Shown here in pieces: positions 4,678 to 17,083 of a stretch of 22,094 nucleotides of DNA. Origin of the DNA: a virus. The stretch spans positions 1 through 22,094 of IMG/VR virus record IMGVR_UViG_3300033145_000026. One strand, written 5' to 3'. The notes under the pieces were generated by a model. It worked only from the letters and a program-made list of their open reading frames with translations, was not told the origin of the DNA and made no database searches. Position 1 is the stretch's first letter. Every line of letters starts with the position of its first letter. The position numbers and the translations under genes were made by a program.

Positions 4678-4712
4678 GAAAGTAGGGTGGGTGAATGGCT
4701 CACCCTGCTTTC
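4678..4712 (+). terminator. Stem-loop before the MuF-toxin gene; terminator, attenuator or translation-control hairpin
   Basis: Bases 4678-4689 pair with 4701-4712 over 12 base pairs (one G-U) around an 11-base loop, followed by a T-rich stretch (4709-4720) interrupted by single C and A bases. A second, mutually exclusive stem of 6 perfect pairs can form between 4689-4694 and 4700-4705. The hairpin ends 8 bases before the likely ATG (4721) of the MuF gene, which has no Shine-Dalgarno site. The weak T-tract fits partial termination or attenuation better than a full terminator; control of translation is equally possible. Confidence 0.5.
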
Positions 4713-4720
4713 TTTATATT

Positions 4721-6271
4721 ATGGCTAATGCAATAAAAATAGACCCGACGAGAACTGTGTTACTGCGAAGAGCGTTTGTTGCAGACATGGTTCGTAGGTT
4801 CAAAGCTCTGTCAAGGGAGATACAGCAGCTTATTGTGAACGATGATGCGTTTGGTTTACATTCTCCGGGTGTTAGAGTTGTTAGTGATTTATATACTGTT
4901 GCTAATGTAGAATTTCAGGCGTGGAGGTTTCAAACTAATCCTCAGAAAGTAAAATCTTATCGTCGTTGGCTTCAGCAGCAAATAGATGGCAAGATTCTAA
5001 CTCAAGTTGGTGGAGTTACCAGTAAACCATGGACAGCTACTTACATTGAACCTGCATATCAGAAAGGTGTTGTTCGTGCTTACACTGATTCACGCAAAGA
5101 ATTACTTACTCAAAGTGAAGTGTTTGGTGTAAGTCAAGCGGAGTTTCTTAGGACATCATTCAGTGGACCAGTAGCTCTTGCTAAAATTGAGTTACTATAT
5201 GAGCGAGCATTTACTGAACTGGAAGGTGTTACTGCTGCTATGGATCAGCAGATGAGTAGAATATTAGCTGGAGGATTAGCTGAAGGACATGGTGCTGCTA
5301 AGATAGCAAGGAATCTACGCGACAATGTTACTAAGATGACTAATACAAGAGCAAAAGTTATTGCAAGAACAGAAATAGTTCGTGCTCATGCTGAAGGACA
5401 ACTTGATTCCTTTGAAATGTTAGGTGTTAAGAAACTTGGTGTCCAGGCTGAATGGATAACTGCTGGTGATGATAGAGTTTGTGCTATATGTGCTGATTTA
5501 GAAGGGCAAGTGTTTAGTGTTAAAGAAGCAAGAGGTTTGATTCCTGAGCATCCTAATTGTCGTTGTGCTTGGATTCCAGCGAACGTTGGGGAGAAAACTG
5601 GTATACCTACAACAAAAAGATCAACTCCATCTATACCACAAGTAGGTCCAACCCTTTCTCCAAAACAAAAAGCAGCTTCATTGAAGCCACAAGTTAAGAA
5701 ACAACCAGAAATGACTCCGGCTCAATTTGATAATTCTTTAACACCTAAAGAAGAAAAGATGCTTATTAGTTGGGTTGAATCTGAAGGTTCTTCAGCCAGT
5801 ACCGGAGATGCAGGTTGGATAACTATAAGAGAGTTAGAAATAACTGCTCCTAAGAATGTAAGAGTAAAAGATTGGAACACCATATTAGATAGAGCACCTA
5901 AATATAAAGAAAGAATATATAGAGGTGGACTGGATAATAAGGGTGATGCGTTTAATGATATATACAAATTAAAAGAGGGACAAACATTCACCATTGATTC
6001 ATCTTCTTCTTCCACATCTGGTAAAAAGTTAGGTGATATTTTCTTAGAAAATCATATGGAGTTTGCGGATAACAATGAAGCCTATCTTTTAAGAATACAG
6101 TCTAAAACTGGAGCAGATGTAAGAAAGACTGCTAAACGATTAGGTGAATGGGATGAGAAAGAAGTTATTTTGAGGTCTGGTAGTAAGTATAGAGTTGATA
6201 AGATAACAAGTAAAGTCCATGAAAAGTTTATAGGTGTTGAGTATAAGGTATTTGATTTGACTGAGATATAA
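4721..6271 (+). CDS. MuF-type minor head protein fused to a predicted ADP-ribosyltransferase
   Basis: A 516-residue two-part protein. ATG 4721 is preferred over in-frame GTG 4691 because the segment from here (Ile-Asp-Pro-Thr-Arg-Thr) matches the usual MuF N-terminus. Residues 1-290 are the head-morphogenesis part: helical N-terminus, then the MuF core with Ala-Arg-Thr-Glu, C254/C257 and H277-P-N-C280-R-C282. After a Pro/Lys-rich linker (about 295-340) comes a domain with all three marks of an R-S-E ADP-ribosyltransferase: R401 in Tyr-Arg-Gly-Gly, the serine run with S-T-S at 431-433, and E479-K-E481. E-x-E usually means arginine modification in this class. MuF proteins with toxin C-termini are a described phage polymorphic-toxin type, thought to be carried in virions. 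Activity and target are inferred. No immunity gene is evident nearby. Confidence 0.85.
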   Translation: MANAIKIDPTRTVLLRRAFVADMVRRFKALSREIQQLIVNDDAFGLHSPGVRVVSDLYTVANVEFQAWRFQTNPQKVKSYRRWLQQQIDGKILTQVGGVTSKPWTATYIEPAYQKGVVRAYTDSRKELLTQSEVFGVSQAEFLRTSFSGPVALAKIELLYERAFTELEGVTAAMDQQMSRILAGGLAEGHGAAKIARNLRDNVTKMTNTRAKVIARTEIVRAHAEGQLDSFEMLGVKKLGVQAEWITAGDDRVCAICADLEGQVFSVKEARGLIPEHPNCRCAWIPANVGEKTGIPTTKRSTPSIPQVGPTLSPKQKAASLKPQVKKQPEMTPAQFDNSLTPKEEKMLISWVESEGSSASTGDAGWITIRELEITAPKNVRVKDWNTILDRAPKYKERIYRGGLDNKGDAFNDIYKLKEGQTFTIDSSSSSTSGKKLGDIFLENHMEFADNNEAYLLRIQSKTGADVRKTAKRLGEWDEKEVILRSGSKYRVDKITSKVHEKFIGVEYKVFDLTEI

Positions 6272-6290
6272 GAATTTAGAGGAAACTAAA

Positions 6291-7787
6291 ATGCTAATCA
6301 ATAACATATCAAAGAGTTTTCAAAAGATTGTTGCCAACTTTGCAGGTAAAGTCCGTCATGACAAGATGGAAGGGCGTGATTACTTAGTTGCTCCAATGGT
6401 TATGATGGTGGAAGGTGTTCTTAGTGGAACTGCTGGTCCTATACTCTATGAGGCTAAGGATATGAGTGCATTTCCAGCAGCTTGGAATAATAAACCTGTT
6501 GTAGTCTATCATCCTGGACAAGGTCAATCTGCATGTGATCCAGATATATTAACAACACAAGGGATCGGCAAAATAATGAAAGCTCGTGTTGAGAATGTTG
6601 GTGATAAGGTTGCATTGAAAGCTGAAGCATGGTTTGAAGAGAGCAGAGCAAATGCTGTTGATAGCCGTATTATGGAGGCAGTAGAAAACAATAAACCAAT
6701 GGAATTGTCTACAGGATTATTTGTTGAAATAGAACCAGTGGAGAACGAAGAGTATAAAGGTATTGCTCGTAATTATCAGCCGGATCATTTAGCTTTGTTA
6801 CCCGATATGAAGGGTGCATGTTCACTGAAAGACGGAGCAGGGTTTTTGATGAACGAAGCGGGAGACAAGTTGTTCATAGATATAACTTCTATGGCAGATG
6901 ATCATAGAAGCTATGTTTCAAGTTATCCAGATACAGTGATTCGTGTTATGGGCAACAGGATAACTGAGTTTATTGATAACGAGATGTCTCATAGCAACGT
7001 TCGCATGCTATTGCAATCGCTTCTTCGAAATACAAATGATGATTTGTGGATTGACGAAGTGTTTGATACGTTTTTCATATATGAGGATGGTGGAAAACTT
7101 TGGAAACAAAATTATTTGATAACAGATGATTCTGCTACCTTCGTGGGTAGTAGAGTTGAAGTGGTTCGTGTAACTGAATTTAGAACTAAAGATGGTAAAG
7201 TTATTGGTAATGAAAGGGATCAAACAATGGACAAAAAGAAGATTGTAGATGGTCTCATCGCTAATGCAGAAACTAAGTGGGAAGAAGCTGACCGCGAAGT
7301 TTTGATGGCGATGGATGATGACGTTCTCAATAAGATTATTGGGAATGAAAAGGAAGCTCCGGCAGCGGAAGCCAATGCTGCTGAAGCAAACGCCACTGAG
7401 ACTCCGGCTGCTGAAGCTGCTGAAGCTAAGGAAACGCCAGATGGCGAAGCAACGGGAAATCAGTCAGTTGATGATTTCATTAAGGGTGCTCCTGCTGAGA
7501 TGCAAGAAGTTTTGACCAACTCAGTAAGGATGCACAACGAAACCAAATCCAAAGTAATTGCTGCTCTTGTTGAAAATAAGAAGTGCAACTTTACTCCTGA
7601 GTATCTGCAGCAGAAGGATTTGGAAGAGCTTCAGAATATGTTGGCGTTGGCTGGTGGTGATAAACCCGCTGATAGCCAAATTCAGCGGTTCAACTATGGT
7701 GGTCAAGGTGGTACTCCTGTTGAGAATATCATAGTGACCGGCGAACCTTTGGTTATCCCGGGTGTAGTAACTGCTTCAGCAAAGTAG
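6291..7787 (+). CDS. DUF2213-like prohead protease fused to a scaffold region
   Basis: A 498-residue protein with the site GAGGAAA shortly before ATG 6291. Residues 1-185 resemble DUF2213, predicted to have a capsid-protease fold: His-Pro after a Lys-Pro-Val-Val-Val-Tyr strand, S140 in Glu-Leu-Ser-Thr-Gly and H166 in Asp-His-Leu-Ala-Leu-Leu, the likely Ser/His active pair. Residues 200-300 form an extra domain often found in this family. Residues 313-498 look like a scaffold: a helical start, an Ala/Glu-rich linker (about 355-390), then helices and a flexible tail. It lies just before the decoration and major capsid genes, as expected. It probably trims scaffold and capsid during maturation. 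The protease call is family-based; catalysis is inferred. Confidence 0.8.
   Translation: MLINNISKSFQKIVANFAGKVRHDKMEGRDYLVAPMVMMVEGVLSGTAGPILYEAKDMSAFPAAWNNKPVVVYHPGQGQSACDPDILTTQGIGKIMKARVENVGDKVALKAEAWFEESRANAVDSRIMEAVENNKPMELSTGLFVEIEPVENEEYKGIARNYQPDHLALLPDMKGACSLKDGAGFLMNEAGDKLFIDITSMADDHRSYVSSYPDTVIRVMGNRITEFIDNEMSHSNVRMLLQSLLRNTNDDLWIDEVFDTFFIYEDGGKLWKQNYLITDDSATFVGSRVEVVRVTEFRTKDGKVIGNERDQTMDKKKIVDGLIANAETKWEEADREVLMAMDDDVLNKIIGNEKEAPAAEANAAEANATETPAAEAAEAKETPDGEATGNQSVDDFIKGAPAEMQEVLTNSVRMHNETKSKVIAALVENKKCNFTPEYLQQKDLEELQNMLALAGGDKPADSQIQRFNYGGQGGTPVENIIVTGEPLVIPGVVTASAK
7212..7229 (+). promoter_or_regulatory. Internal ribosome binding site and start for the scaffold
   Basis: GAAAGG at 7212-7217 precedes the in-frame ATG 7227 with a 9-base spacer, inside the protease gene. 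The same hexamer stands 6-9 bases before the starts at 7848, 9477, 10501, 17101 and 17568, and 7 bases before the second capsid ATG (8363). Other copies of GAAAGG inside genes that I checked are not followed by an ATG at this distance. Confidence 0.6.
7227..7787 (+). CDS. Putative separate scaffold protein from internal start
   Basis: Starting at residue 313 of the protease gene, this would give a 186-residue protein in the same frame: a Lys-rich start, helices with Ala-Asn-Ala-Glu-Thr-Lys-Trp-Glu-Glu, an Ala/Glu linker, further helices and a Gly-rich tail. That composition fits a scaffold core. Nested genes making a protease-scaffold and a shorter scaffold are well known (lambda C and Nu3). 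The strong internal ribosome site argues that the scaffold is made in excess of the protease. Not certain without protein evidence. Confidence 0.5.
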   Translation: MDKKKIVDGLIANAETKWEEADREVLMAMDDDVLNKIIGNEKEAPAAEANAAEANATETPAAEAAEAKETPDGEATGNQSVDDFIKGAPAEMQEVLTNSVRMHNETKSKVIAALVENKKCNFTPEYLQQKDLEELQNMLALAGGDKPADSQIQRFNYGGQGGTPVENIIVTGEPLVIPGVVTASAK

Positions 7788-7847
7788 TTGTAAAGTAGTT
7801 CAAATTGTACGAAAATGTGAATAGTTTATTTCGAAAGGTGAACTAAA

Positions 7848-8297
7848 ATGGCAAATCGTGTTCATAGTAAAGGTCCCTTCATTCAAGAAGAGGCTGTAGC
7901 TGGTGAGGCTGGCATTTATCCAGGAATGCTGATTAAACTCAATTCCTCTGGGCAAGTTATTAAGCACACGACTGAAGGTGGAGTGCTTGGTGATGAAACT
8001 TTGATTGCTTCGGAAGATGCTCTTCAAGGTGCTAATGCGGATACTGTTTATACCAGTGGAGCAATCGTGACGTATTATGTTGGCTCTCCTGGATCTGAGT
8101 ATAATCTGCTCATTGAAGATGCACAAGACATTGCTATTGGTGACAAGATCATGAGTGCTGGAAATGGTAAACTCAAAGAAACAACTGATATTGAAAGTGG
8201 TGACACACTTGCTAAGGTTGTTGGGGTTGCTACTGAAGCCAATGATTTGACTGGTAGTAATTCAAGCGATACTCGGTCCAGCGTTCGACTTGTGTAA
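7848..8297 (+). CDS. Putative capsid decoration/stabilising protein
   Basis: A 149-residue acidic protein, beta-rich with many Gly, Ser and Thr. It resembles small head decoration proteins (DUF2190-like) that bind the outside of the capsid: a Pro-Gly-Met-Leu-Ile-Lys-Leu-Asn strand, Gly-Asp-x-Ile-Met-Ser-Ala-Gly-Asn-Gly, and a final Val-Gly-Val-Ala-Thr-Glu strand before a Ser-rich end. It stands between the protease-scaffold and the major capsid gene, the usual place for such proteins. The strong site GAAAGG (7833-7838, spacer 9) fits a high-copy virion component. The 60-base gap before it holds AAAGTAGTT twice (7781-7789, 7792-7800), an 11-base tandem duplication of no obvious function. Confidence 0.7.
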   Translation: MANRVHSKGPFIQEEAVAGEAGIYPGMLIKLNSSGQVIKHTTEGGVLGDETLIASEDALQGANADTVYTSGAIVTYYVGSPGSEYNLLIEDAQDIAIGDKIMSAGNGKLKETTDIESGDTLAKVVGVATEANDLTGSNSSDTRSSVRLV

Positions 8298-8301
8298 TCT
8301 G

Positions 8302-8316
8302 TGTCTCTATGAGACA
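8302..8316 (+). other. Small stem-loop in the leader of the capsid gene
   Basis: TGTCTC (8302-8307) pairs perfectly with GAGACA (8311-8316) around a 3-base loop. No T-run follows, so it is not a typical terminator. It lies between the decoration and capsid genes and could act as an mRNA stabilising or processing site for high capsid expression. It may also be chance. Confidence 0.3.
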
Positions 8317-8359
8317 TTAGTAAGTTTGTAAATGTAAAAAGGTTTAAACGAAAGGTGAT

Positions 8360-9445
8360 ATGATGGATTTCATTTTCAATGGGCAATCCCATGGTGGTGT
8401 TGCTGATAAATTAGCAGCGAATGGGTATAACCCTCACAGTCTTCGTCCATATCTCAGTGATTGTGGACAGTACACTTGTATTAGTGTACACAACGGGAAG
8501 TTCAATCAGGATGGAACTCCCCAGATGGAACAGCGTGTTATAGGTAATGCAACAGCGACTCTTCGTAAAGATGCTTGGAAGCATCTTGATACAGTTGTTG
8601 TCAAGGTTGCTAAGGAACGGCTGAAAGCAGTTGCGGATCTTCAAGGTGCTGGACTCACATACAGCATTCCTAATGGATTAGGCACGACGGTTCTTGAAAC
8701 CGAAACTCAGAGTGACATTGGTCCGGCGTCCGTAAGTATGGATGGACTGCGGAAGAATGCTAATGATCGTCCGGTATGGGAAATTGGGTTCTTGCCCTTG
8801 CCAATCGTTCATAAGGATTTTGGTTATTCTGCTCGTCAACTTGCTTCTGCGGCTAAGAGTGGTTCTCCCCTGGATACCACGTCCGCTGAATTAGCTGCTC
8901 GTAGAGTAGCTGAGGAAACCGAAAAGCTTCTGCTCGGTGTGAGTACTGTTGCAGATCAGTATACCTATGGAGGTGGTGTCATCTATGGTTATACCGATTT
9001 TCCAAATCGGTTGACTAAGACCATCTCTCAGCCTGATGGTACATCTGATGATGGCACAGTGTTCTTGACGGAAGTCTTGGCTATGATTAAACAGGCAAAG
9101 GATGCTTTCCATTTTGGTCCATACGTTTTGTATGTATCTACAGAATGGGATCAGTATCTTAATGCTGATTTTAAGGATAGCTCAGATAAGACACTCCGCG
9201 AAAGAATAATGGCGTTGACGGATATTACCGATATTCGTACGCTTGATTTCCTGGCGAATTTTGATGTTGTCTTGGTTCAGCAGACTACAGATGTTGTCCG
9301 GCTGGTTATTGGCATGGACATAGTCACAGTGATGTGGGATACTGAAGGCGGACTTTACAAGAACTTTAAAGTTATGTCTATTATCGTTCCTCAGCTTCGT
9401 GCGGATCAGAATAGCAATACCGGGATTGTTCACGGTACTGTGTAA
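8360..9445 (+). CDS. Major capsid protein (HK97-like fold, predicted)
   Basis: A 361-residue protein that should form the capsid shell. The sequence has features of an encapsulin/HK97-type head protein family: a long N-terminal arm, an Ala/Lys-rich spine-like helix (Lys-Val-Ala-Lys-Glu-Arg-Leu), an Ile-Gly-Pro-Ala-Ser stretch, a P-domain start around Pro-Leu-Pro-Ile-Val-His-Lys-Asp-Phe, a Arg-Val-Ala-Glu-Glu-Thr-Glu helix with Leu-Gly-Val, and later a strand-rich part with Val-Gln-Gln-Thr-Thr. Position after protease and decoration genes agrees. ATG 8360 and ATG 8363 are adjacent; GAAAGG (8350-8355) is 4 bases from the first and 7 from the second, so 8363 may be the real start. The strong site fits high expression. 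Confidence 0.9.
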   Translation: MMDFIFNGQSHGGVADKLAANGYNPHSLRPYLSDCGQYTCISVHNGKFNQDGTPQMEQRVIGNATATLRKDAWKHLDTVVVKVAKERLKAVADLQGAGLTYSIPNGLGTTVLETETQSDIGPASVSMDGLRKNANDRPVWEIGFLPLPIVHKDFGYSARQLASAAKSGSPLDTTSAELAARRVAEETEKLLLGVSTVADQYTYGGGVIYGYTDFPNRLTKTISQPDGTSDDGTVFLTEVLAMIKQAKDAFHFGPYVLYVSTEWDQYLNADFKDSSDKTLRERIMALTDITDIRTLDFLANFDVVLVQQTTDVVRLVIGMDIVTVMWDTEGGLYKNFKVMSIIVPQLRADQNSNTGIVHGTV

Positions 9446-9476
9446 CTGTAACATTACTTAATTGGAAAGGGTAATT

Positions 9477-9893
9477 ATGTTATTTGAATTGATTGGTGCT
9501 CCACACGAGCAAGATGGCAAGCGATATGTCAAAGGTGATCGCATTGAAACTGACCGCAATCTGTGTCAGATGTTCAGAGGGAAATTTAAAGTGTTGGATG
9601 GTGGTGGGGAACCATCACCAGGAACTCCAGTTCCACAGCCAAATATTCCTAAATCAGTAGATGCCCCAATTGCGGCTGACACTGATACTGTTGCAACAGA
9701 AGCAACTGCAACATCTGTAAAGAAGCTGGCTTCAGGAATAGATATGACTATGACTTTTCCTGAAGCCAAAGGTTCTGAGCTAACAGTTATGAAAGTTGGT
9801 GATGACCAGTTTCAATTTGCCAAAAATGGATTTATAGAAGTGAATGGGATCTTCACAAGAGCTCAAGCTTCGATCTTCTTGAAAAATTTGTAA
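9477..9893 (+). CDS. Small virion-associated hypothetical protein after capsid
   Basis: A 138-residue protein. ATG 9477 is chosen because GAAAGG (9465-9470) is 6 bases upstream; the in-frame TTG 9462 lies before that site. The N-terminal 45 residues (Tyr-Val-Lys-Gly-Asp-Arg-Ile-Glu ... Phe-Arg-Gly-Lys-Phe-Lys-Val) resemble a small domain often found just after the capsid gene in siphophages. Residues 46-90 are a Pro/Ala/Thr-rich linker. The last 45 residues form a second small domain with Val-Gly-Asp-Asp-Gln-Phe-Gln-Phe and a terminal helix. It may be a head-surface or neck protein. Function is unknown. It overlaps the next start by one base (TAATG). Confidence 0.6.
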   Translation: MLFELIGAPHEQDGKRYVKGDRIETDRNLCQMFRGKFKVLDGGGEPSPGTPVPQPNIPKSVDAPIAADTDTVATEATATSVKKLASGIDMTMTFPEAKGSELTVMKVGDDQFQFAKNGFIEVNGIFTRAQASIFLKNL

Positions 9894-10504
9894 TGCCAAG
9901 ATGGATCGTTGAAAAGAAGTGGAAAGACCAAGAGGTATTTATTATTGGTGGAGGGGAGTCCCTGAAAGGATTTGATTGGGGTCTCCTTAAACCACTAAGA
10001 ACTATTGGATGTAATGATGCTTATGTTCATGGGACTGATATTTGTTTGTTCGGTGATACTAAGTGGTTTGAGCATCATGAAAAGTGGCTTAGGAATTATG
10101 AAGGGATAGTATTTACAAGTTGTCCAAAGTTACAAAAATCCAGAGTCCCTTGGCTATGGCTTATTTGCAGGGAAGCAATTGGTCTTCATAAAGGTTCTAT
10201 AGGATGGAATTTTAGTACTGGAGCAAATGCTATAAATTTGGCTTTGCTTTTAGGTGCTGCTAAAATTTATCTTCTTGGCTTTGATGTAAAGTTATCAAAG
10301 TATGGTAAATCTAATTGGCATGATAACAATCTTGATGCTCCTAATGAAGAAGTGTATCCTAAGTTCTTAGAAGGATTTAAGTATGTAGCAAGGGATCTTA
10401 GAAAAAAGTTTCCTGAAGTAAAGGTTATCAATGTAACTAATGATAGTGCTCTAAATGAATTCCCTAAAATTAGTACAAAAGAATTTTGGAAAGGAAGATC
10501 ATGA
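9893..10504 (+). CDS. MptE/DUF115-like protein, possibly sugar- or nucleotide-binding
   Basis: A 203-residue protein starting at a TAATG overlap. It shows both halves of the DUF115/MptE-like pattern: a glycine-rich loop GGGESL at 19-24 after a Val-Phe-Ile-Ile strand, followed by a Cys-Asn-Asp-Ala-Tyr segment, and a Ser-Thr-Gly-Ala-Asn-Ala helix ending in Leu-Leu-Gly-Phe-Asp at 127-131. This fold covers pterin diphosphokinases, flagellin-glycosylation accessory proteins and sialyltransferase-like enzymes. Phage relatives are often labelled only as a morphogenetic protein. A role in modifying virion or host surface sugars is possible but unproven. It is unusual cargo between capsid and connector genes and overlaps the next gene by ATGA. 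Confidence 0.6.
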   Translation: MPRWIVEKKWKDQEVFIIGGGESLKGFDWGLLKPLRTIGCNDAYVHGTDICLFGDTKWFEHHEKWLRNYEGIVFTSCPKLQKSRVPWLWLICREAIGLHKGSIGWNFSTGANAINLALLLGAAKIYLLGFDVKLSKYGKSNWHDNNLDAPNEEVYPKFLEGFKYVARDLRKKFPEVKVINVTNDSALNEFPKISTKEFWKGRS

Positions 10505-10842
10505 AACAGATATTGCTAATAACTATGGTAATGATTGGGCTTTTCGTTTTCTCAGGTTGCGGAGAAGAGTTTGCTGCTGGGATGGGTACTGGAGCAGCTT
10601 TGGTTCATGATGCTAATGCTAAAGTCATTGAGGCTGTCGCTGAATTGAATGCCAGGACTGAGGAAATCAATGGTACTATATCTTCTACTGGGGATATGGT
10701 TGTTCTTAAGACAGATACTATTGCAGCTATACGATCTTTGAAAGGACGCGAAAAAGATCCAGTGACATGGGTTGCTTTAGCATCTTTATTGGCTAATACT
10801 TTTGTTGGAGGCAATGCATTTTCTAATAGGAAAAAGAAATAA
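10501..10842 (+). CDS. Predicted phage lipoprotein
   Basis: A 113-residue protein starting at ATG 10501, with GAAAGG (10489-10494) 6 bases upstream and an ATGA overlap with the gene before. Residues 1-20 form a lipoprotein signal: a Lys at position 2, a hydrophobic core, then F-S-G-C with the lipidated Cys at 20. A predicted-helical mid region (Ala-Glu-Leu-Asn-Ala-Arg-Thr-Glu) and a hydrophobic patch near residues 85-100 precede a basic end. Known phage lipoproteins act in superinfection exclusion or as outer spanins in lysis; either fits. The mature part is longer and less Pro-rich than a typical Rz1, and no partner i-spanin was identified. It overlaps the peptidase gene by TAATG. Confidence 0.7.
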   Translation: MKQILLITMVMIGLFVFSGCGEEFAAGMGTGAALVHDANAKVIEAVAELNARTEEINGTISSTGDMVVLKTDTIAAIRSLKGREKDPVTWVALASLLANTFVGGNAFSNRKKK

Positions 10843-11432
10843 TGCTAACATATAACAAATATAGACCAAAAGCCCAGACTGGGGATATGATAGCTTTCTC
10901 TGGAACAGGTTTAGCATCTACAGGTATCAAAGTTGCTTCGGGAAGTGAGTGGTCTCATATTGGAATGGGAATTGTTTCTCCAGAGTGGGATATGGTTTTA
11001 TGTCACGAGTCCACTTTGCTTTGTACAGTAGCTGATATCGGTTCAGGATTTGTTAAGAAAGGTGTAATGCTGGTTCCGTTGCAAGCTCGTATTGCAACTT
11101 ACAAAGGCAAGATGGGCATCAGATGTATTAGAAACCCATTAACATTAGAACAGTTAGCAATTTTAAGAGCTTATAGACATGAGGTAAAAGATCGCCCTTA
11201 TGAAAATGATTATATTGAATTAGTCAAAGCAGTTTATGATGGTCCGTTTGGGGAAAATACCCAAGATTTAATCAGTTTATTCTGTTCTGAAAACTTTGCA
11301 GAACCTTGCATTAGAATGAAATTGATAGGTGATGATGAGCCAAGTAACGAGTATCATCCTGGTGATTTTATCGACGACGGGAACTTTGATGAAATTTGGG
11401 AACCTGTTCAAGAGATTATAGTGGGAACATAA
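10842..11432 (+). CDS. Permuted NlpC/P60 (YiiX-like) papain-fold peptidase or amidase
   Basis: A 196-residue protein. The order of its motifs is that of circularly permuted papain-like hydrolases: an N-terminal Thr-Gly-Asp-Met-Ile-Ala-Phe-Ser-Gly strand, catalytic H39 in Ser-His-Ile-Gly, a His-Glu-Ser-Thr motif near residue 53, and nucleophile C148 in Phe-Cys-Ser-Glu-Asn at the C-terminal side. Such enzymes cut amide bonds in peptidoglycan or lipid substrates. It has no signal peptide or membrane segment. It follows the lipoprotein gene directly (TAATG), so the pair may work together at the cell envelope, in lysis or entry. It could also be a structural relic without activity. Its place inside the head genes is unusual. 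Confidence 0.7.
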   Translation: MLTYNKYRPKAQTGDMIAFSGTGLASTGIKVASGSEWSHIGMGIVSPEWDMVLCHESTLLCTVADIGSGFVKKGVMLVPLQARIATYKGKMGIRCIRNPLTLEQLAILRAYRHEVKDRPYENDYIELVKAVYDGPFGENTQDLISLFCSENFAEPCIRMKLIGDDEPSNEYHPGDFIDDGNFDEIWEPVQEIIVGT

Positions 11433-11434
11433 TT

Positions 11435-11839
11435 ATGGCTATTAGAACAACAAATGCATTAGTAGAAGCGATAATTGAAGTAGAGTCTGGAATAGTTCTT
11501 ACTCCGTTCATTGCTGCTGCTAATACTTTAGTCACTAAATTCTGTACAGATTTAGATGAAGATTATACAGCAGCCGAACTTCAGCAAATTGAAACTTGGC
11601 TTGCTGCTCATTTTTATACAGTTAGAGATCCTCGTGCAGATGAAGAAAGAGCAGGACCAGTTTCACAAAGATTGCAATCTAAAGTGGATCTTGGATTATC
11701 TACTTCTCATTATGGTCAAATGGCTATGACCTTGGATTATTATGGTGGATTATCAGCGTTGAATGAATCTATTAAAAACGGTACGAGTAACACAGTTGGT
11801 ATGACTTGGTTAGGTACTGAAGAAGATGATATTGAATAG
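11435..11839 (+). CDS. Putative head-tail connector (adaptor) protein
   Basis: A 134-residue protein. ATG 11435 follows GGGA (11423-11426) at 8 bases and lies just after the peptidase stop; upstream in-frame starts lie inside that gene. The sequence resembles gp6/gp15-like adaptors: an N-terminal Val-Glu-Ala-Ile helix, an Asp-Tyr-Thr-Ala-Ala-Glu-Leu helix leading into Trp-Leu-Ala-Ala-His-Phe-Tyr, and a Leu-Gly-Leu-Ser-Thr-Ser-His-Tyr-Gly segment. These sit below the portal and link it to the stopper. It is followed two genes later by a stopper-like protein, as expected. Family assignment is from pattern only. Confidence 0.65.
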   Translation: MAIRTTNALVEAIIEVESGIVLTPFIAAANTLVTKFCTDLDEDYTAAELQQIETWLAAHFYTVRDPRADEERAGPVSQRLQSKVDLGLSTSHYGQMAMTLDYYGGLSALNESIKNGTSNTVGMTWLGTEEDDIE

Positions 11840-11848
11840 GGATAACTT

Positions 11849-12142
11849 ATGATAGCTATTATAGAACACACTACGATTTTTCTTTCATGGCTGGGAACAT
11901 TAACTGCTGGTTTATTAGGAGTCTACGCTTTGGCGTTTAAGACAATGAAAGATGTAAATAGAAAAGTGGATGTTCATGTTTCAGATACTAAAGTTCATAC
12001 AGATCCTGAGCATCCTACAGTATCTGATGCTGTTTGTAAAGAGGTACAAAAAAGAAATGAGGTTCATTTTGATACGCTGGCTTCAGGACAGACGGATATT
12101 AAGAAAACGCTTGATCGTGTATGGGAGAAGATGAATCAATGA
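11849..12142 (+). CDS. Single-membrane-span small protein (holin-like position unclear)
   Basis: A 97-residue protein with one hydrophobic span at about residues 8-30, then a soluble part with the striking His-Thr-Asp-Pro-Glu-His-Pro pattern (residues 50-56) and a C-terminal, probably coiled-coil, helix. Start ATG 11849 has AGGGATAA (11838-11845) upstream. Proteins with a short membrane anchor followed by this histidine-rich stretch occur in phages beside head-tail genes; some are called holin or haemolysin-like, without proof. It could anchor assembly at the membrane or serve in lysis with the peptidase and lipoprotein upstream. It ends in an ATGA overlap with the stopper gene. Confidence 0.6.
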   Translation: MIAIIEHTTIFLSWLGTLTAGLLGVYALAFKTMKDVNRKVDVHVSDTKVHTDPEHPTVSDAVCKEVQKRNEVHFDTLASGQTDIKKTLDRVWEKMNQ

Positions 12143-12483
12143 GTGTCATTAAGCGAATGAGAAAACAGGATGCTGTTTATTGGCCTTTTGTTTCTGTAGA
12201 TAATTTTGCTCAAAAGGTAGTTGGTTCTCCTGTTCAGATAAGATGTAGATGGGATAATGTAACCCAGGAATTCTTAGATAGTAGTGGTGAAATTCAAATG
12301 TCTAATGCTGTTGTTTATCCTGATCGGGATACTCCGATTGGTGGAATTTTGATGCGAGGTGTATTAGCTGACATAACTGATGCAGTAGATATTAAAGAAA
12401 ATGAAGGTGCTTGGGAAATAAGACGTTTTGATGATACTCCTAATTTTAAAGCAAGCGAATTCTTAAAGACAGCATATCTATAA
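12139..12483 (+). CDS. Putative head closure (stopper) protein
   Basis: A 114-residue beta-rich protein that would close the neck after packaging. ATG 12139 sits in an ATGA overlap and has GGGAGAAG before it. The pattern fits stopper/head-tail joining proteins: a conserved Ala-Val-Tyr-Trp strand, Gln-Ile-Arg-Cys-Arg-Trp-Asp, a Ser-Ser-Gly-Glu hairpin, Ala-Val-Val-Tyr-Pro-Asp-Arg-Asp and Pro-Ile-Gly-Gly, with an acidic helix before a final strand and a C-terminal Lys-Ala-Ser-Glu-Phe-Leu helix. It is coupled to the gp10-like gene by a TAATG overlap. Position between connector and tail-completion genes is the expected one. Confidence 0.7.
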   Translation: MSVIKRMRKQDAVYWPFVSVDNFAQKVVGSPVQIRCRWDNVTQEFLDSSGEIQMSNAVVYPDRDTPIGGILMRGVLADITDAVDIKENEGAWEIRRFDDTPNFKASEFLKTAYL

Positions 12484-12863
12484 TGGCTAAACTTGCTCGA
12501 GTAACTGGTGTAACTAAAGTTCTTTTAAATTTGGCGAAGTTCAATGCCAATTTAAATCCTGCTATTGCTGCTGGATTCATGAAAGGTGGGCTATTCTTAC
12601 AACGGGAAAGCATGAAAATTGTTCCTGTGGATAAGAATGTTTTACGACCGAGTGCTAATACCAGACAAGTAGGAGAAACTCATCTTGGGAAAATAGATGT
12701 TGTTATTTCTTATTCTACTGAGTATGCTGTGCATGTTCATGAGGATTTAGATGCAAGACACAAGCAAGGAAAACAGGCAAAATTCTTAGAACAGCCTGCA
12801 AGAGAAAAGAAGGATGAAATATTTAAAATTATTCATTCTACAGTTTTGAAAAGAATTAGATAA
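12483..12863 (+). CDS. HK97 gp10-like tail completion/neck protein
   Basis: A 126-residue protein that resembles the HK97 gp10 family, which completes the head-tail joint. The telling part is the middle and C-terminal end: a Val-Pro-Val-Asp-Lys-Asn strand, a Ser-Thr-Glu-Tyr-Ala-Val-His-Val-His-Glu segment and a Lys-Gln-Ala-Lys-Phe-Leu-Glu-Gln-Pro-Ala segment followed by a terminal basic helix. This is the family's typical 'Tyr-Ala ... His-Glu ... Lys-Phe-Leu-x-x-Pro' order. Start and end are TAATG overlaps. It is the last typical neck gene before a block of accessory and fibre-like genes. Confidence 0.75.
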   Translation: MAKLARVTGVTKVLLNLAKFNANLNPAIAAGFMKGGLFLQRESMKIVPVDKNVLRPSANTRQVGETHLGKIDVVISYSTEYAVHVHEDLDARHKQGKQAKFLEQPAREKKDEIFKIIHSTVLKRIR

Positions 12864-13789
12864 TGTTAGTTAGATCTTACCATCATGATTCGTTTGCAGG
12901 CTTTGTTGCTGATAAGCATATCGCTCATTCAGGGGTTGCTATTTCTGCAGGTGGAATCTTATCTGGTGGTGGAACAATAGTTGCTAATAGAACTATATCA
13001 CTTGCTCATGGAGATGTGGATCATGATCAGCTTACTAACACTCATGATCTTACAAATGATATAGATCATAATGCTATTGCTAATACTCATAACCTTGGAG
13101 CCGACATTGACCATGGAAATCTTTCTGGGCTTGATACAGGTGCGGATCATTCCTTCATAGATCAAGATGTAAAAGTAGCAGCGACTCCCACCTTTGCTGA
13201 ATTGATTTTAGCTTTGGGAGCCAGTCAGAATTATCAATTTTTACCTACTGCTGTTGCTACGGAGTTAGGACTTCAAGGGCAAAGTCTGAACACACTTAAC
13301 AGATTATCTATGTTTGCAGGGACTGGCGATGGGGGGGAACATGTAGGTTTTCGTATCGTTGGTAAAGGAACTCCGAGTTATCCTGTTGGTCATCACAGTA
13401 TGTTTATACAATGGAATCGTGATACCGGTTCTTATGTTGTATCTACGGCAACTTCTGGCATGGCCCTTTTGTTATCGGGTGGAGGGACTGGTGCTACTGC
13501 GGCACACTTTGAGTTGTGTGGAACTACTCGTAGAGGTCGGATGAGAGGACAGTTGCTTTTAGATCAGCCGACTGTTGAGGAACCCTTTTTTGATTTTATG
13601 GGAACTGAAGCAAGCACAACACGAGCGACTATTGTTGATGAGTTGGGTGATGATGGCGAACCTCCGGCAGGACCTTGGCATAGTTGCGATGGAATAGATT
13701 GGACTGTTGTCAAAATGGTTAAAGTTAATGTTAATGATAGTGGAAGCAACTTGTACTTAGCTGTGTACGAATCTTGTGATAATAGTTGA
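12863..13789 (+). CDS. Fibre- or spike-like virion protein with His/Asp repeats
   Basis: A 308-residue protein rich in Gly, Asp, His and Thr. Residues 51-95 are three 15-residue repeats, each beginning with Asp-Val/Ile-Asp-His and two continuing with Asn-Thr-His-Asp/Asn-Leu. The pattern recalls the Asp-x-Asp-His/Asn-Thr-His repeats of phage and GTA fibres and appendages. The stretch before (Gly-Gly-Ile-Leu-Ser-Gly-Gly-Gly-Thr-Ile) also looks fibre-like. The rest is beta-rich and ends in a possible receptor-binding or chaperone-like domain with a Gly-Ser-Asn-Leu-Tyr-Leu-Ala-Val-Tyr strand. A receptor-binding or decoration role is inferred. It starts by TAATG overlap with the neck gene and is followed closely by a GT-like gene, in an island. 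Confidence 0.65.
   Translation: MLVRSYHHDSFAGFVADKHIAHSGVAISAGGILSGGGTIVANRTISLAHGDVDHDQLTNTHDLTNDIDHNAIANTHNLGADIDHGNLSGLDTGADHSFIDQDVKVAATPTFAELILALGASQNYQFLPTAVATELGLQGQSLNTLNRLSMFAGTGDGGEHVGFRIVGKGTPSYPVGHHSMFIQWNRDTGSYVVSTATSGMALLLSGGGTGATAAHFELCGTTRRGRMRGQLLLDQPTVEEPFFDFMGTEASTTRATIVDELGDDGEPPAGPWHSCDGIDWTVVKMVKVNVNDSGSNLYLAVYESCDNS
13013..13147 (+). repeat. Three 45-base coding repeats in the fibre-like gene
   Basis: Codons 51-65, 66-80 and 81-95 of the fibre-like gene encode repeats of Asp-(Val/Ile)-Asp-His followed by 11 residues; the first two share Asn-Thr-His and Leu, the third diverges after residue 4. The repeat number could change by recombination between copies, a way to alter fibre length. 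The nucleotide copies are diverged, so the event is not recent. Confidence 0.6.
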
Positions 13790-13790
13790 T

Positions 13791-14315
13791 ATGAAGATTT
13801 TTACAATTATAAAACCCGGCGAAGTAATTGACAACAGAGTGTTGTGTGGGATAACACGGCAATCTGTATGCTGCAATCTCGTTCCAATTAGCACTCCAGT
13901 GACTCATAAGCTATGGAGAATGAATGTTCTTGCGAATTGGATAGAAGCGTTAAGTTACCAATCTGATGAACTGTTTATTGGTATGGATAGTGATGTAGTT
14001 CTGGAAGACCCTGATACTATCAAGGAGTTACTACAATACACGACTGATGGTGTTTTCATGGCTACAATTCGCAGTCAGACCAGACATATTAAAGCTAAAC
14101 AATCTAAGTTAGTGATTGCCCATTCATTATTTTCTTGCACGGATAAGAATTTATTGAGAAGTGAATTGATTAAGCTAAAAAAGAATTTTGTTGATAGGTG
14201 TCCTATATGTTGGGCTATGGAAAGAATACTGAAAATGAAAAAGGTAATGCGTTTTATTCATTATCCAACGGCCTATGAGTGTTGCCGGGAAACTTTAGTG
14301 AGAGGTGAAAAATGA
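13791..14315 (+). CDS. Small GT-A-like protein with DxD motif, putative glycosyltransferase
   Basis: A 174-residue protein. ATG 13791 is the first ATG after the preceding stop; in-frame GTG 13776 lies inside that gene. No Shine-Dalgarno site is seen, so translation is probably coupled. Residues 61-72 have the strand-then-loop pattern of GT-A glycosyltransferases, with D66-S-D68 in Gly-Met-Asp-Ser-Asp-Val-Val, the usual site for a metal ion and sugar nucleotide. The segment Leu-Trp-Arg-Met-Asn-Val upstream and a Cys-rich end (Cys-Pro-Ile-Cys near 140) are also notable. It is shorter than most such enzymes and may lack an acceptor domain. It could glycosylate a virion fibre, fitting its place between two fibre-like genes. 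The GT call is a fold-level inference. Confidence 0.5.
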   Translation: MKIFTIIKPGEVIDNRVLCGITRQSVCCNLVPISTPVTHKLWRMNVLANWIEALSYQSDELFIGMDSDVVLEDPDTIKELLQYTTDGVFMATIRSQTRHIKAKQSKLVIAHSLFSCTDKNLLRSELIKLKKNFVDRCPICWAMERILKMKKVMRFIHYPTAYECCRETLVRGEK

Positions 14316-14545
14316 AATTAGTGATTAGCATAGATATTCCAGATGCCCATGTTCCGTTGATTGGTCAAGTTTTTCGAGAAAATTATGACGAAGATGAGAC
14401 TTTCGTAGGTACAACAAAGGAACTTGTTAAGAAGGTTTGTGCCAAGAGAACAATTCAGTTTATAGCGAGCCATGTTCGTTCAAAAGAGGCGAAAGTGCAT
14501 AAAGATAATTTCAGCCCTACGGACTTAGGAATTGCCAGTGAGTAA
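14312..14545 (+). CDS. Small hypothetical protein
   Basis: A 77-residue protein starting in an ATGA overlap, with AGAGGTG just upstream of ATG 14312. It has a strand at residues 2-8, a Pro/Val-rich turn and an acidic Asn-Tyr-Asp-Glu-Asp-Glu region, then basic helices (Lys-Glu-Leu-Val-Lys-Lys-Val). No signal or membrane segment is present. Its alpha/beta appearance and size resemble small phage accessory proteins. No function is recognised. It overlaps the next gene. Confidence 0.55.
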   Translation: MKLVISIDIPDAHVPLIGQVFRENYDEDETFVGTTKELVKKVCAKRTIQFIASHVRSKEAKVHKDNFSPTDLGIASE

Positions 14546-14774
14546 TATGATTACTTATTTAGAAGAAAGAAAAACTCACTTGATGGAAGAAGGGGAGTAT
14601 GTGCATGGTGAACTCAAGAAGCATCAAATTGAAGAAGCCAAATTGATAGAAAAGATAGCAGAATTGAAGGGTGCTGTAGTTGAGGTAGATAAAATTATTC
14701 AAGAGGCTAAGAGAAAACAACAAAGAAGAAAAAGAAGTTCTACTAAAAAGGTGAAGAAGAAAAATGGCAAATGA
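14538..14774 (+). CDS. Small coiled-coil protein with highly basic tail
   Basis: A 78-residue protein. GTG 14538 is chosen because AGGA at 14526-14529 lies 8 bases upstream; TTG 14532 is too near it and ATG 14547 too far. Residues 5-50 look like a single coiled-coil helix (heptads with Leu, Ile and Met), and residues 55-78 are almost all Lys and Arg with a few Ser/Thr. Such a tail could bind nucleic acid or membranes. It overlaps the fibre-like gene after it by 11 bases. Family not recognised; it may be a chaperone or assembly factor for that fibre. Confidence 0.55.
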   Translation: MSNMITYLEERKTHLMEEGEYVHGELKKHQIEEAKLIEKIAELKGAVVEVDKIIQEAKRKQQRRKRSSTKKVKKKNGK

Positions 14775-16122
14775 GATAAGAGTACAATTTCAGCCTGATG
14801 AAACAAATTTATATGCTTGCGTTTTCAAGGATGATTCAGGAACATATAAGGTTAATATTGCAGGTGGTGATACTTGGGAAGTTTTTGATGATGCCAATAT
14901 TGATAATTATGATATTCCGTTGACTGAAAGCGGAGATGAAAGTGGTATGTTTCTTGGTGACTTCCCAAGCATTGCAGCAGGTAGATATGATTTCACAATA
15001 TATCAGGGAAATAAGGCTGAAGGCATTACTCAATTGGTTCTTGGAAGTTCTGATCCTCAAGGTTTTAAATGGAGTGGAACTGCTGAGGTATTCCCTAACA
15101 CTACTGTTCCAGATGCCGCTGGAATTGCTGCTGGTCTTCATGCTACGACAGATGGGAAAGTTGATGCAGCACAAATTGATTTAGACACTATAACTGATAC
15201 TGGTGTAAATATAGTATCTGAAGATAACATTGATTTTGGTGCTTTGAAAAAGACAAGTCTTAATAATGCTACTCCTTCTGTAACTGTTTCAGATAAAACT
15301 GGGTTCAGTTTATCGACTGCTGGCATTCTTGCTATATGGCATCAATTAGAAGCTGCTGTTGTTACTGCATCTACTATGGGCATAAAATTAAAGAATTGGG
15401 TATTAGGTTCTGATAATAAAAGTTTAATCAGTACAGATGCTCAAGATTTAAGTGGGACATTAGATGTTAATACTAAAACTATTTCAGCTGGAGCAGTTGA
15501 CTCTTCTGCCATAGCAACTGATGCGATAGATGCTGATTCTCTTAAAGCTGATGCGGTTGCAGAAATACAAAGTGGTCTTGCACCTGCTAATGAATATGAT
15601 GTTGAATTAGATGCTGCTATTTCCACAAGAGCAACTTCGGAAAAACAAGATACAATGGAAACAACTCTTGGAGTAGTTGCTGGAGATGTAGCAAATATAG
15701 ATGGTGATTCTATGCGTGGAACAGATGGGGCGAATACTACTGTCCCAGATAATACTGGTATAGCAGCAATAGAAGCAGTTACTGATAAACTTGAAGATAC
15801 TGTTGAAGATGCTGGAGGTGATAATTATATATTCACTTCTGCTGCTTTGGCTCAGGCTCCTACTGCTGAGATGGATGCTGCTGAATTAGAAGCTGCTATG
15901 AAAGCTATAACAGGAATCACTGTTGGAGGTAGTTGGACATGGGAAAAGATAATGAAAATTGCTGCTGCTTTTATAGCAGGGAATTGGAGGGTAAAATCTT
16001 CAGATGCTACTGTTCAACAGTTGTTGGATGCTGAAGATGGGGCAACAGTTATTCTTGAACAATCTATTACTCGTTCTCCTGGTGCTGGTTCTAATTATAG
16101 AGATATGACGGTACTAATATAA
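14764..16122 (+). CDS. Fibre-like or baseplate-like virion protein
   Basis: A 452-residue acidic protein. Residues 1-95 form a beta-rich domain (Val-Gln-Phe, Ala-Cys-Val-Phe, Tyr-Asp-Phe-Thr-Ile-Tyr) like those at the base of phage fibres. The middle has Ala/Asp-rich repeats and two related segments, Thr-Thr-Val-Pro-Asp-x-x-Gly-Ile-Ala-Ala, at residues 113-123 and about 329-339. Asp-Ala-Ile-Asp-Ala-Asp-Ser-Leu helices and Ile-Gln-Ser-Gly-Leu suggest a trimeric fibre shaft. The C-terminal end has Trp-Thr-Trp-Glu-Lys-Ile-Met-Lys-Ile-Ala. AAAGGTG precedes the start ATG 14764, inside the small coiled-coil gene. Probably a virion fibre or appendage; receptor and place on the particle are unknown. 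It ends by TAATG overlap with a tail-terminator gene. Confidence 0.65.
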   Translation: MANEIRVQFQPDETNLYACVFKDDSGTYKVNIAGGDTWEVFDDANIDNYDIPLTESGDESGMFLGDFPSIAAGRYDFTIYQGNKAEGITQLVLGSSDPQGFKWSGTAEVFPNTTVPDAAGIAAGLHATTDGKVDAAQIDLDTITDTGVNIVSEDNIDFGALKKTSLNNATPSVTVSDKTGFSLSTAGILAIWHQLEAAVVTASTMGIKLKNWVLGSDNKSLISTDAQDLSGTLDVNTKTISAGAVDSSAIATDAIDADSLKADAVAEIQSGLAPANEYDVELDAAISTRATSEKQDTMETTLGVVAGDVANIDGDSMRGTDGANTTVPDNTGIAAIEAVTDKLEDTVEDAGGDNYIFTSAALAQAPTAEMDAAELEAAMKAITGITVGGSWTWEKIMKIAAAFIAGNWRVKSSDATVQQLLDAEDGATVILEQSITRSPGAGSNYRDMTVLI

Positions 16123-16640
16123 TGGGATTCAATTTAATAGCAAAAACAATACCGGCGGTCACTGGTGGTCTTTTTGATTTTGAAAGAGGCTTTGAAACCC
16201 AAGATCCATTATTGATAACTCCTGCTAATGTTATATTTCAATATCTTGTGGATCAAGGATTAATGACTGATCCAGAAGATGGAAATGATTGGCCTCTTCA
16301 TATATCTCGTATGCCAGATAGCCCTTCAAATATAGGAGCAATCTATGATACTGTTGGGATAAAAGATGGTCGATATATGATTGGAACCGTTATTCAGCAT
16401 TTTGGTATTCAAATAAAGATAAGAAATATAGACTATACTGAAGGATGGGAAAAAATTGAAGCAATAACTTTAGACCTGGATACAGTTATCAATGAAACAG
16501 TTACTTCTGGTGGTGAAGATTACTTAGTTCAGAACGTTAAGAGAGCGGGTCTAATAGCTTCATTAGGTTCAGAAAGAGGAACTAAGAAACGACAGTTATT
16601 TACATCTAATTTTCTTGTAACTATGAAAAGGATAGCATAG
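16122..16640 (+). CDS. Tail terminator-like protein, copy 1
   Basis: A 172-residue protein with a 30-residue N-terminal extension absent from the next gene. From residue 31 on, it matches the next protein at about half of positions, including Trp-Pro-Leu, Gly-Ala-Ile, Lys-Asp-Gly-Arg-Tyr-Met, Gln-His-Phe-Gly-Ile and Gly-Thr-Lys-Lys-Arg-Gln-Leu-Phe. The pattern and position before the tail tube fit minor capsid/tail terminator proteins that cap the tail and join the neck. Starts by TAATG overlap and ends at a TAGTG overlap with its paralogue. Two copies in tandem are unusual. Confidence 0.6.
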   Translation: MGFNLIAKTIPAVTGGLFDFERGFETQDPLLITPANVIFQYLVDQGLMTDPEDGNDWPLHISRMPDSPSNIGAIYDTVGIKDGRYMIGTVIQHFGIQIKIRNIDYTEGWEKIEAITLDLDTVINETVTSGGEDYLVQNVKRAGLIASLGSERGTKKRQLFTSNFLVTMKRIA

Positions 16641-17083
16641 TGTTATTGATTTCACCTGCTTCTATCTTAGCTGCTTATCTTATAGCTGAAGGATTAGTTA
16701 CAGATCCAAGTGATGGTAATAGTTGGCCTCTGTATGTTTCTTATATGTCTGATGAGATTGGTGGTAAAACAAATGCTGGAGCAATATTTAATACTCCGGG
16801 ATTAAAAGATGGTCGATATATGGTTGGTACTGTTGTCCAGCATTTTGGCATAAGAATAGAAATAAGGAGTCGTGCTCATAATGATGGCTGGGCAAAACTT
16901 GAAGCAATAGCAACTAATTTAGACTCCGTGCAAAATGAATCAGTTGTTGTAAGTGGAGAAACATATCTAATTCAGAATGTAAGTAGAGTAGAACCTATGA
17001 TTCCTGAGGGGACAGAAAAAGGAACTAAGAAAAGACAATTGTTTTCACATAATTTTAGAATGACGGTAAAGATAACTTCTTAA
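16640..17083 (+). CDS. Tail terminator-like protein, copy 2 (tandem paralogue)
   Basis: A 147-residue paralogue of the protein before it. The GTG start overlaps the previous stop by one base, with AAAGGA (16625-16630) about 9 bases upstream. The conserved core is the same, but without the 30-residue extension. The central loop (Asp-Glu-Ile-Gly-Gly-Lys-Thr) and the region before the final Gly-Thr-Lys-Lys-Arg differ most. It could form a mixed ring with copy 1, act at a different point of the neck, or be a redundant copy. Nothing indicates decay: no frameshift or stop is seen in either copy. Confidence 0.65.
   Translation: MLLISPASILAAYLIAEGLVTDPSDGNSWPLYVSYMSDEIGGKTNAGAIFNTPGLKDGRYMVGTVVQHFGIRIEIRSRAHNDGWAKLEAIATNLDSVQNESVVVSGETYLIQNVSRVEPMIPEGTEKGTKKRQLFSHNFRMTVKITS

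Follow-up and report, generated by a model that had tools for sequence, protein, structure and literature searches.

Permuted NlpC/P60 proteins of the YaeF/YiiX kind (MEROPS C92) are known from the structures of BcPPNE (3KW0) and YiiX (2IF6). The structure paper (PMC3142127) names His49, Glu64, Tyr127 and Cys154 as the catalytic residues of BcPPNE, describes a fatty acid modelled in YiiX as well as hydrophobic S1 pockets, and proposes an amidase for lipid-amino acid bonds. Two other permuted members, Tox-Act1 and TseH, show phospholipase activity (PMC12994826); both are type VI secretion effectors, and Tox-Act1 comes with an immunity protein. A further family, DUF1353, contains TtaP, for which PLA2 activity has been demonstrated; His70, Asp71 and Asp85 are its key residues, and the authors expect PLA2 activity of other DUF1353 proteins (PMC11525133). 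The unimolecular spanin T1 gp11 carries an N-terminal lipobox and a C-terminal hydrophobic segment with a basic tail, and about 13% of the genomes in a spanin survey were without a recognisable spanin (PMC6139136). In the open-licence literature, as covered by titles and abstract openings, we found no account of a lipoprotein paired with an acyl hydrolase.

Here, we analysed a stretch of 22,094 bases from an IMG/VR virus record (the window), which belongs to a tailed phage with a siphophage-type gene order: large terminase, portal, MuF-type protein, DUF2213, decoration, capsid, a small gene, DUF115, lipoprotein, enzyme, connector genes, tail genes and tape measure. The names MuF, portal, capsid fold, tail terminator and tape measure are backed by Pfam, and the remaining genes were named by eye. 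Named phages are distant, the top capsid match (36%) being to Brevundimonas phages. The initial annotation had placed three joined, envelope-related genes between the capsid and connector genes, and the ORFs confirmed that all three are present there and overlap or abut (Table 1); their envelope-type nature was supported as well. The best start of the lipoprotein gene is the ATG at 10501 (the ORF list gives a TTG at 10486), which overlaps the stop of the DUF115 gene, and the enzyme gene starts on the lipoprotein stop.

Table 1. Genes in and around the capsid-connector interval of the window.
Feature	Coordinates	Strand	Basis
Small gene between the major capsid and DUF115 genes	9477..9893	+	ORF reading and interval comparison
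DUF115-like gene	9893..10504	+	ORF list, PHROGs, profile, AF2 fold comparison
Lipoprotein, family lipoA	10501..10842	+	Lipobox, 65-residue mature spacer, relatives in 8 further contigs
Permuted papain-like (YiiX/C92-type NlpC/P60) enzyme	10842..11432	+	PDB profile, alignment, selection
First gene of the connector region, closing the variable slot on the right	11435..11839	+	tblastn
97-aa protein of holin-like plan (a single borderline TM-like segment at the N terminus)	11849..12142	+	Relatives in G001 and other contigs

The three overlapping genes are real, yet they are not one unit. We collected relatives of the window with DUF115 and capsid profiles and compared the interval from the capsid gene to the first connector gene; tblastn matched the latter gene in 134 of 142 loci, the window counted in. 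The block of three genes was found in only 1 of 91 unique intervals, that of the window itself; by the refuting test named in the initial annotation, the proposal that they form a single block is not supported. DUF115 adjoined the capsid-connector junction in 76 of the 91 intervals, a figure that is inflated because 64 loci were recruited via DUF115 itself and the major capsid protein scan retained 80 of 307 relatives. It lay in the capsid-connector interior in 62 intervals (59 clusters at 95% identity) and directly past the connector gene in 14, and 15 loci had no DUF115 match. When only intervals recruited with the capsid profile were counted (46, represented by L089-L148), DUF115 lay between capsid and connector in 31. 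In the closest relative, the 77-kb contig G001, DUF115 is kept in place (61% identity), whereas the enzyme (85% identity) follows a different lipoprotein and is placed between MuF and DUF2213. This arrangement argues that DUF115 is backbone and the enzyme cargo, and it shows that the site of the enzyme gene is not fixed. The suggestion that a module had moved between phages stood for the lipoprotein and enzyme genes and failed for DUF115; the mobile unit comprises two genes, not three.

The MptE/DUF115-like identity given to the first gene was upheld. Its product matched phrog_4603 ('alpha-2,3-sialyltransferase', E 2.2e-25) and, under the cut-off, Pfam MptE (E 0.0014), and a DUF115 profile (A6) matched CstII in the PDB at E 3e-4. 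An AF2 model built from a 46-sequence alignment (pLDDT 92.9) had the fold (VIA Z 11-14) shared by the Maf glycosyltransferase (5MU5, 14.4), the GT42 sialyltransferase CstII (1RO8, 12.8) and the archaeal MptE-type HPPK (MjHPPK 8SD5, 11.2). Fold and N-terminal sequence motif together place the protein in the GT42/DUF115 group, and a putative GT42/Maf-type glycosyltransferase is a likelier identity than a pterin enzyme. All 46 aligned sequences carry H143, and we infer that it is catalytic. In contrast to these known systems, the gene is part of a phage lineage backbone, outside the lipoprotein-enzyme pair.

The slot between DUF115 and the connector gene was empty in 12 of the 62 intervals and filled in 50. 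Under a looser lipobox rule, a lipobox protein was present in 35 of the 50 filled slots (24 by the strict filter), and lipobox ORFs made up 36 of 96 unique slot ORFs, compared to 16 of 1511 unique ORFs in the remainder of these loci; the lipobox was assigned by eye in L011, L028 and L016, and L017, near-identical to L016, was taken with it. An enzyme from one of four sequence groups occurred in 13 of the 50 (DUF1353 in eight, permuted papain-like types in five). Across the lineage loci, predicted acyl hydrolases make up 14 of 1606 unique ORFs. Support for the permuted slot enzymes varied: L037 matched phrog_1128 at 1.1e-7 and L091 is 67% identical to it; L019 matched phrog_1128 only at 0.0066, and L028, which has no match of its own, is 69% identical to L019. 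The L019 enzyme also shares 28% identity (E 2e-10) with that of L170, which matches phrog_1128 at 8.7e-14. The slot is, by these comparisons, a variable cargo site rich in predicted lipoprotein genes. A plain holin slot was considered and rejected; TM-like proteins are frequent there, but ten slot proteins that were scanned gave no Pfam or PHROGs holin match. Slot ORFs of L096, L126, L128 and L050 have an N-terminal hydrophobic segment followed by another that ends with a GC motif resembling a lipobox, and are perhaps fused membrane and lipoprotein genes. The 97-aa protein beyond the connector gene is 68% identical to its G001 counterpart and has relatives in L035/L096 and L172 (27%).

To follow the lipoprotein itself, we scanned with a profile of the window family (lipoA, profile A7) and obtained eight loci, hence nine contigs with the window. 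A predicted acyl hydrolase accompanied lipoA in all nine; it was the next ORF in eight and one ORF later in L170, where the intervening ORF had DNA-repair-type PHROGs matches. The partner was a DUF1353 protein in six contigs (L011, L012, L020, L024, L172 and L174, the L172 lipoprotein being incomplete at the contig end) and a permuted papain-like enzyme in three, namely the window, L169 (phrog_1128, 2.8e-8) and L170. The pair occupies the head slot in the window, L011, L012, L020, L024 and L172, and lies between portal and MuF in L174; in L169 and L170 it adjoins replication/recombination-type genes, in different surroundings. A binomial estimate for 8 of 9 pairings at the enzyme frequency of 14/1606 gave 3e-16, a value far too small because of shared ancestry, since six of the nine contigs fall in one lineage and slot and are not independent. 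The same exchange recurred with a second lipoprotein family, lipoB (L014 with L019 and L028, BLAST E about 1e-9 to 1e-10), in which the partner is DUF1353 in L014 and a permuted-type enzyme in L019 and L028. A search of phage records with the L011 lipoprotein found none, and searches of the phage collection with the window enzyme and with the L037 enzyme returned zero matches. The useful fact, evident at the level of sequence, is this exchange of enzyme family behind homologous lipoproteins across several settings. That lipoA stands beside sequence-unrelated enzymes, one of them from a known membrane-lipid-cutting family, suggests that the pair is a movable two-gene tool for envelope attack or remodelling.

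The reading of the third gene as a permuted NlpC/P60-type enzyme with H39 and C148 in its active site was borne out. A four-member profile (A5) matched BcPPNE 3KW0 (E 1.5e-10) and YiiX 2IF6 (E 3e-5) in the PDB, and H39, E56, Y120 and C148 align to His49, Glu64, Tyr127 and Cys154 of 3KW0, with His before Cys. The order His-Glu-Tyr-Cys, a GD motif and a similar length are shared with the YaeF/YiiX proteins, and, like BcPPNE, the window enzyme is without a signal peptide. It differs from them in being phage-borne, in adjoining a lipoprotein gene and in having no Pfam C92 match; the window enzyme alone matched no Pfam family and reached NCBIfam YiiX only at E 0.003, far under the cut-off, while its relatives L152 and L160 exceed the C92 cut-off. 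An AF2 model from four sequences had a pLDDT of only 38. Between the window and G001, the enzyme gene showed a dN of 0.095 with a pS of 0.70 (synonymous sites near-saturated), indicating strong purifying selection, so the ORF is not a chance frame; the capsid gene gave a dN of 0.32, and the enzyme is thus the more constrained of the two. A very recent transfer of the enzyme gene, raised by its 85% identity against 60% for the capsid, finds no support, as synonymous sites are near-saturated. With Tox-Act1 and TseH, the window enzyme shares a permuted core, the conserved His and Cys, and bacterial membrane lipid as the proposed target; unlike those effectors, it is a phage gene beside a lipoprotein whose family also pairs with DUF1353. 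The enzyme family extends to other phages and to a Paenibacillus chromosome (L153, 32%, with Tyr replaced by Phe). Among 16 loci with relatives outside the pair (L152, L153, L155, L156-L167 and L089), a lipobox ORF of at least 30 aa within 700 bases was absent in 14, and L159 and L160 had only a doubtful one of 33 aa, while the same test was positive in 4 of 4 pair controls. These relatives indicate that the enzyme does not need a lipoprotein partner.

The DUF1353 proteins that hold the enzyme's position behind homologous lipoproteins in the relatives belong to a sequence family unrelated to the window enzyme and absent from the window. In the phage proteins H69-D70 and D90 are invariant in 9 of 9 aligned sequences, so that they have a His-Asp pair and a second Asp. 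The Pfam cut-off of 22.5 was exceeded by L027 and L174, the other seven scanned scored 17.6-21.8, and the best match of a profile search against the PDB was a PLA2, at only E 0.034. In PHROGs, the DUF1353 and permuted papain-like proteins of phages go under the labels 'tail assembly chaperone' and 'enoyl-CoA hydratase/carnithine racemase-like'; the present comparison offers a likely activity for both.

The lipoprotein call likewise held: the protein has an MK start, a hydrophobic core, the lipobox VFSGC at the expected place and a 65-residue mature spacer. Lipoproteins are sorted according to the residue that follows the lipobox Cys; here this is Gly, the signal for the outer membrane. The C-terminal plan conserved in lipoA, KDPVTW followed by a hydrophobic segment and a basic tail, is u-spanin-like, and the window copy, like the unimolecular spanin, has no further Cys. 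The segment is short in comparison and borderline as a transmembrane domain: it passes a 15-residue hydropathy test (mean 1.71 in the window, 1.28-1.99 over nine members) but fails a 17-residue one. The partner, unlike in the spanin system, is an acyl hydrolase. No holin/endolysin pair was recognised beside it among the window ORFs that were read or scanned, a subset of all ORFs.

Sequence comparison shows the pairing, the exchange of enzyme families behind homologous lipoproteins and the alignment of the catalytic residues; for the role of the pair, we favour, with about even confidence, an envelope-lipid attack module that most likely aids lysis. The lipoprotein would be located in the outer membrane, and its conserved C-terminal hydrophobic segment may extend to the inner membrane. 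The signal-less enzyme would cleave acyl chains of membrane phospholipids, or acyl groups of lipoproteins, via Cys148, His39 and Glu56, and the resulting lysophospholipid could weaken the envelope, most likely as a lysis aid beside a separate peptidoglycan endolysin. Lysis is favoured by the head-operon location of the pair in the window lineage and by two phage contexts, FNU2, in which DUF1353, a 2-TM ORF and an annotated amidase follow one another, and vir555, in which an endolysin, a TM ORF, a small ORF and a permuted enzyme do so. Against it, the G002 module is antisense to the structural genes and adjoins RuvC- and RecT-like genes (by eye), and that of G003 lies amid replication-type genes, settings that suit early expression better than lysis. 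The distance of the lysozyme-like ORFs from the module in G001 and G002 also counts against it, as do the enzyme relatives that have no lipoprotein neighbour. The named-phage cases Colwellia 9A and Alishewanella Slicko01 were without such a lysis context, and in the unannotated record MT836801 no clear gene was seen by eye. A more specific version, which we put forward only tentatively, is a mobile lysis device in which a spanin-like, envelope-spanning lipoprotein is kept while its phospholipase (DUF1353 PLA2 or permuted acyl hydrolase) is exchangeable, and lipid cleavage would open the membranes alongside or instead of spanin fusion. Such a pair of lipoprotein and interchangeable phospholipase would offer a concrete candidate for a further way of crossing the envelope, or for exclusion by means of lipids.

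The initial annotation allowed for peptidoglycan or lipid cleavage, and lipid is the part that gained ground: hydrophobic pockets and phospholipases are described for the permuted subclass (PMC3142127 and PMC12994826), relatives have in place of the enzyme a DUF1353 protein, from a family in which the one characterised is a PLA2 (PMC11525133), and G001 has a separate lysozyme-like ORF, assigned by eye. By analogy, we predict that the window enzyme is a lipid acyl hydrolase, with lipid a likelier substrate than peptidoglycan. In favour of a phage lysin that cuts peptidoglycan, as canonical NlpC/P60 enzymes do, those window ORFs that were read or scanned, a subset of all, included no other recognisable lysin; against it stand the hydrophobic S1 pocket of the subclass and the G001 ORF, which has its own N-terminal hydrophobic segment (by eye; no PDB match), and we rate it unlikely, giving it very little weight. 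Lipoprotein maturation, in which the enzyme trims or transfers acyl chains on its partner or on host lipoproteins, has a precedent in LnsA, a permuted-kind NlpC/P60 protein needed for lipoprotein N-acylation (PMC7387801), and would suit a pair whose constant member is a lipoprotein gene. It leaves the replacement by DUF1353 unexplained, as the characterised DUF1353 protein cleaves phospholipid, and appears improbable to us.

Adjacent genes for an enzyme and a lipoprotein could also encode a phospholipase toxin with its periplasmic antidote, like the type VI Tle/Tli pairs, and Tli3 is an outer-membrane lipoprotein that confers immunity against a phospholipase (PMC9860674). One lipoprotein family combined with unrelated enzyme families is, however, a poor fit to a specific inhibitor, and the enzyme has neither a signal nor a TM-like segment, so we consider this reading rather unlikely. 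Host-envelope remodelling or superinfection exclusion would have the pair expressed early, the lipoprotein masking or jamming a receptor or channel and the hydrolase altering lipids against later phages. Lipoproteins are a known exclusion device, the slot cargo is variable, and the modules of G002 and G003 lie among replication-type genes, all of which speak for this possibility. The same head-operon position and the endolysin neighbours of DUF1353 and permuted enzymes in FNU2 and vir555 that favour lysis count against it, and the lipoprotein was assigned to no exclusion family by Pfam, PHROGs or NCBIfam; we regard it as possible but unlikely.

Several other features were observed. The lysozyme-like ORFs of G001 and G002 (L007:16580-17137 and L179:5532-5981), assigned from the sequence by eye, are 50% identical and share an ENGGPG motif and a hydrophobic N-terminal stretch. 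The G001 ORF had no lysin match in Pfam, NCBIfam or PHROGs, and a two-sequence profile with that of G002 had no PDB match; the two may possibly represent an unrecognised endolysin family, and their presence suggests that murein is cut by another gene. In the window, the ORF at 13791-14315 looked glycosyltransferase-like by eye (FIGMDSDVV), with no Pfam match and a PDB match at chance level only. On the reverse complement of G001 (5492-15866), a second DUF115 copy is followed by a run of ORFs resembling, by eye, sugar-modifying enzymes. The N-terminal part of the small window gene that precedes DUF115 also has a match in another ORF of G001; the G001 ORF at 6136 begins with a domain resembling that of this small gene. 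The MuF-type head protein (4691-6271) has a long C-terminal extension with a sub-threshold ADP-ribosyltransferase match (PF03496, E 0.029), possibly a fused domain of this type. Finally, two neighbouring window genes at 16122-17083, the first of which is the tail terminator by Pfam, both match one G001 gene and are probably a tandem duplication.
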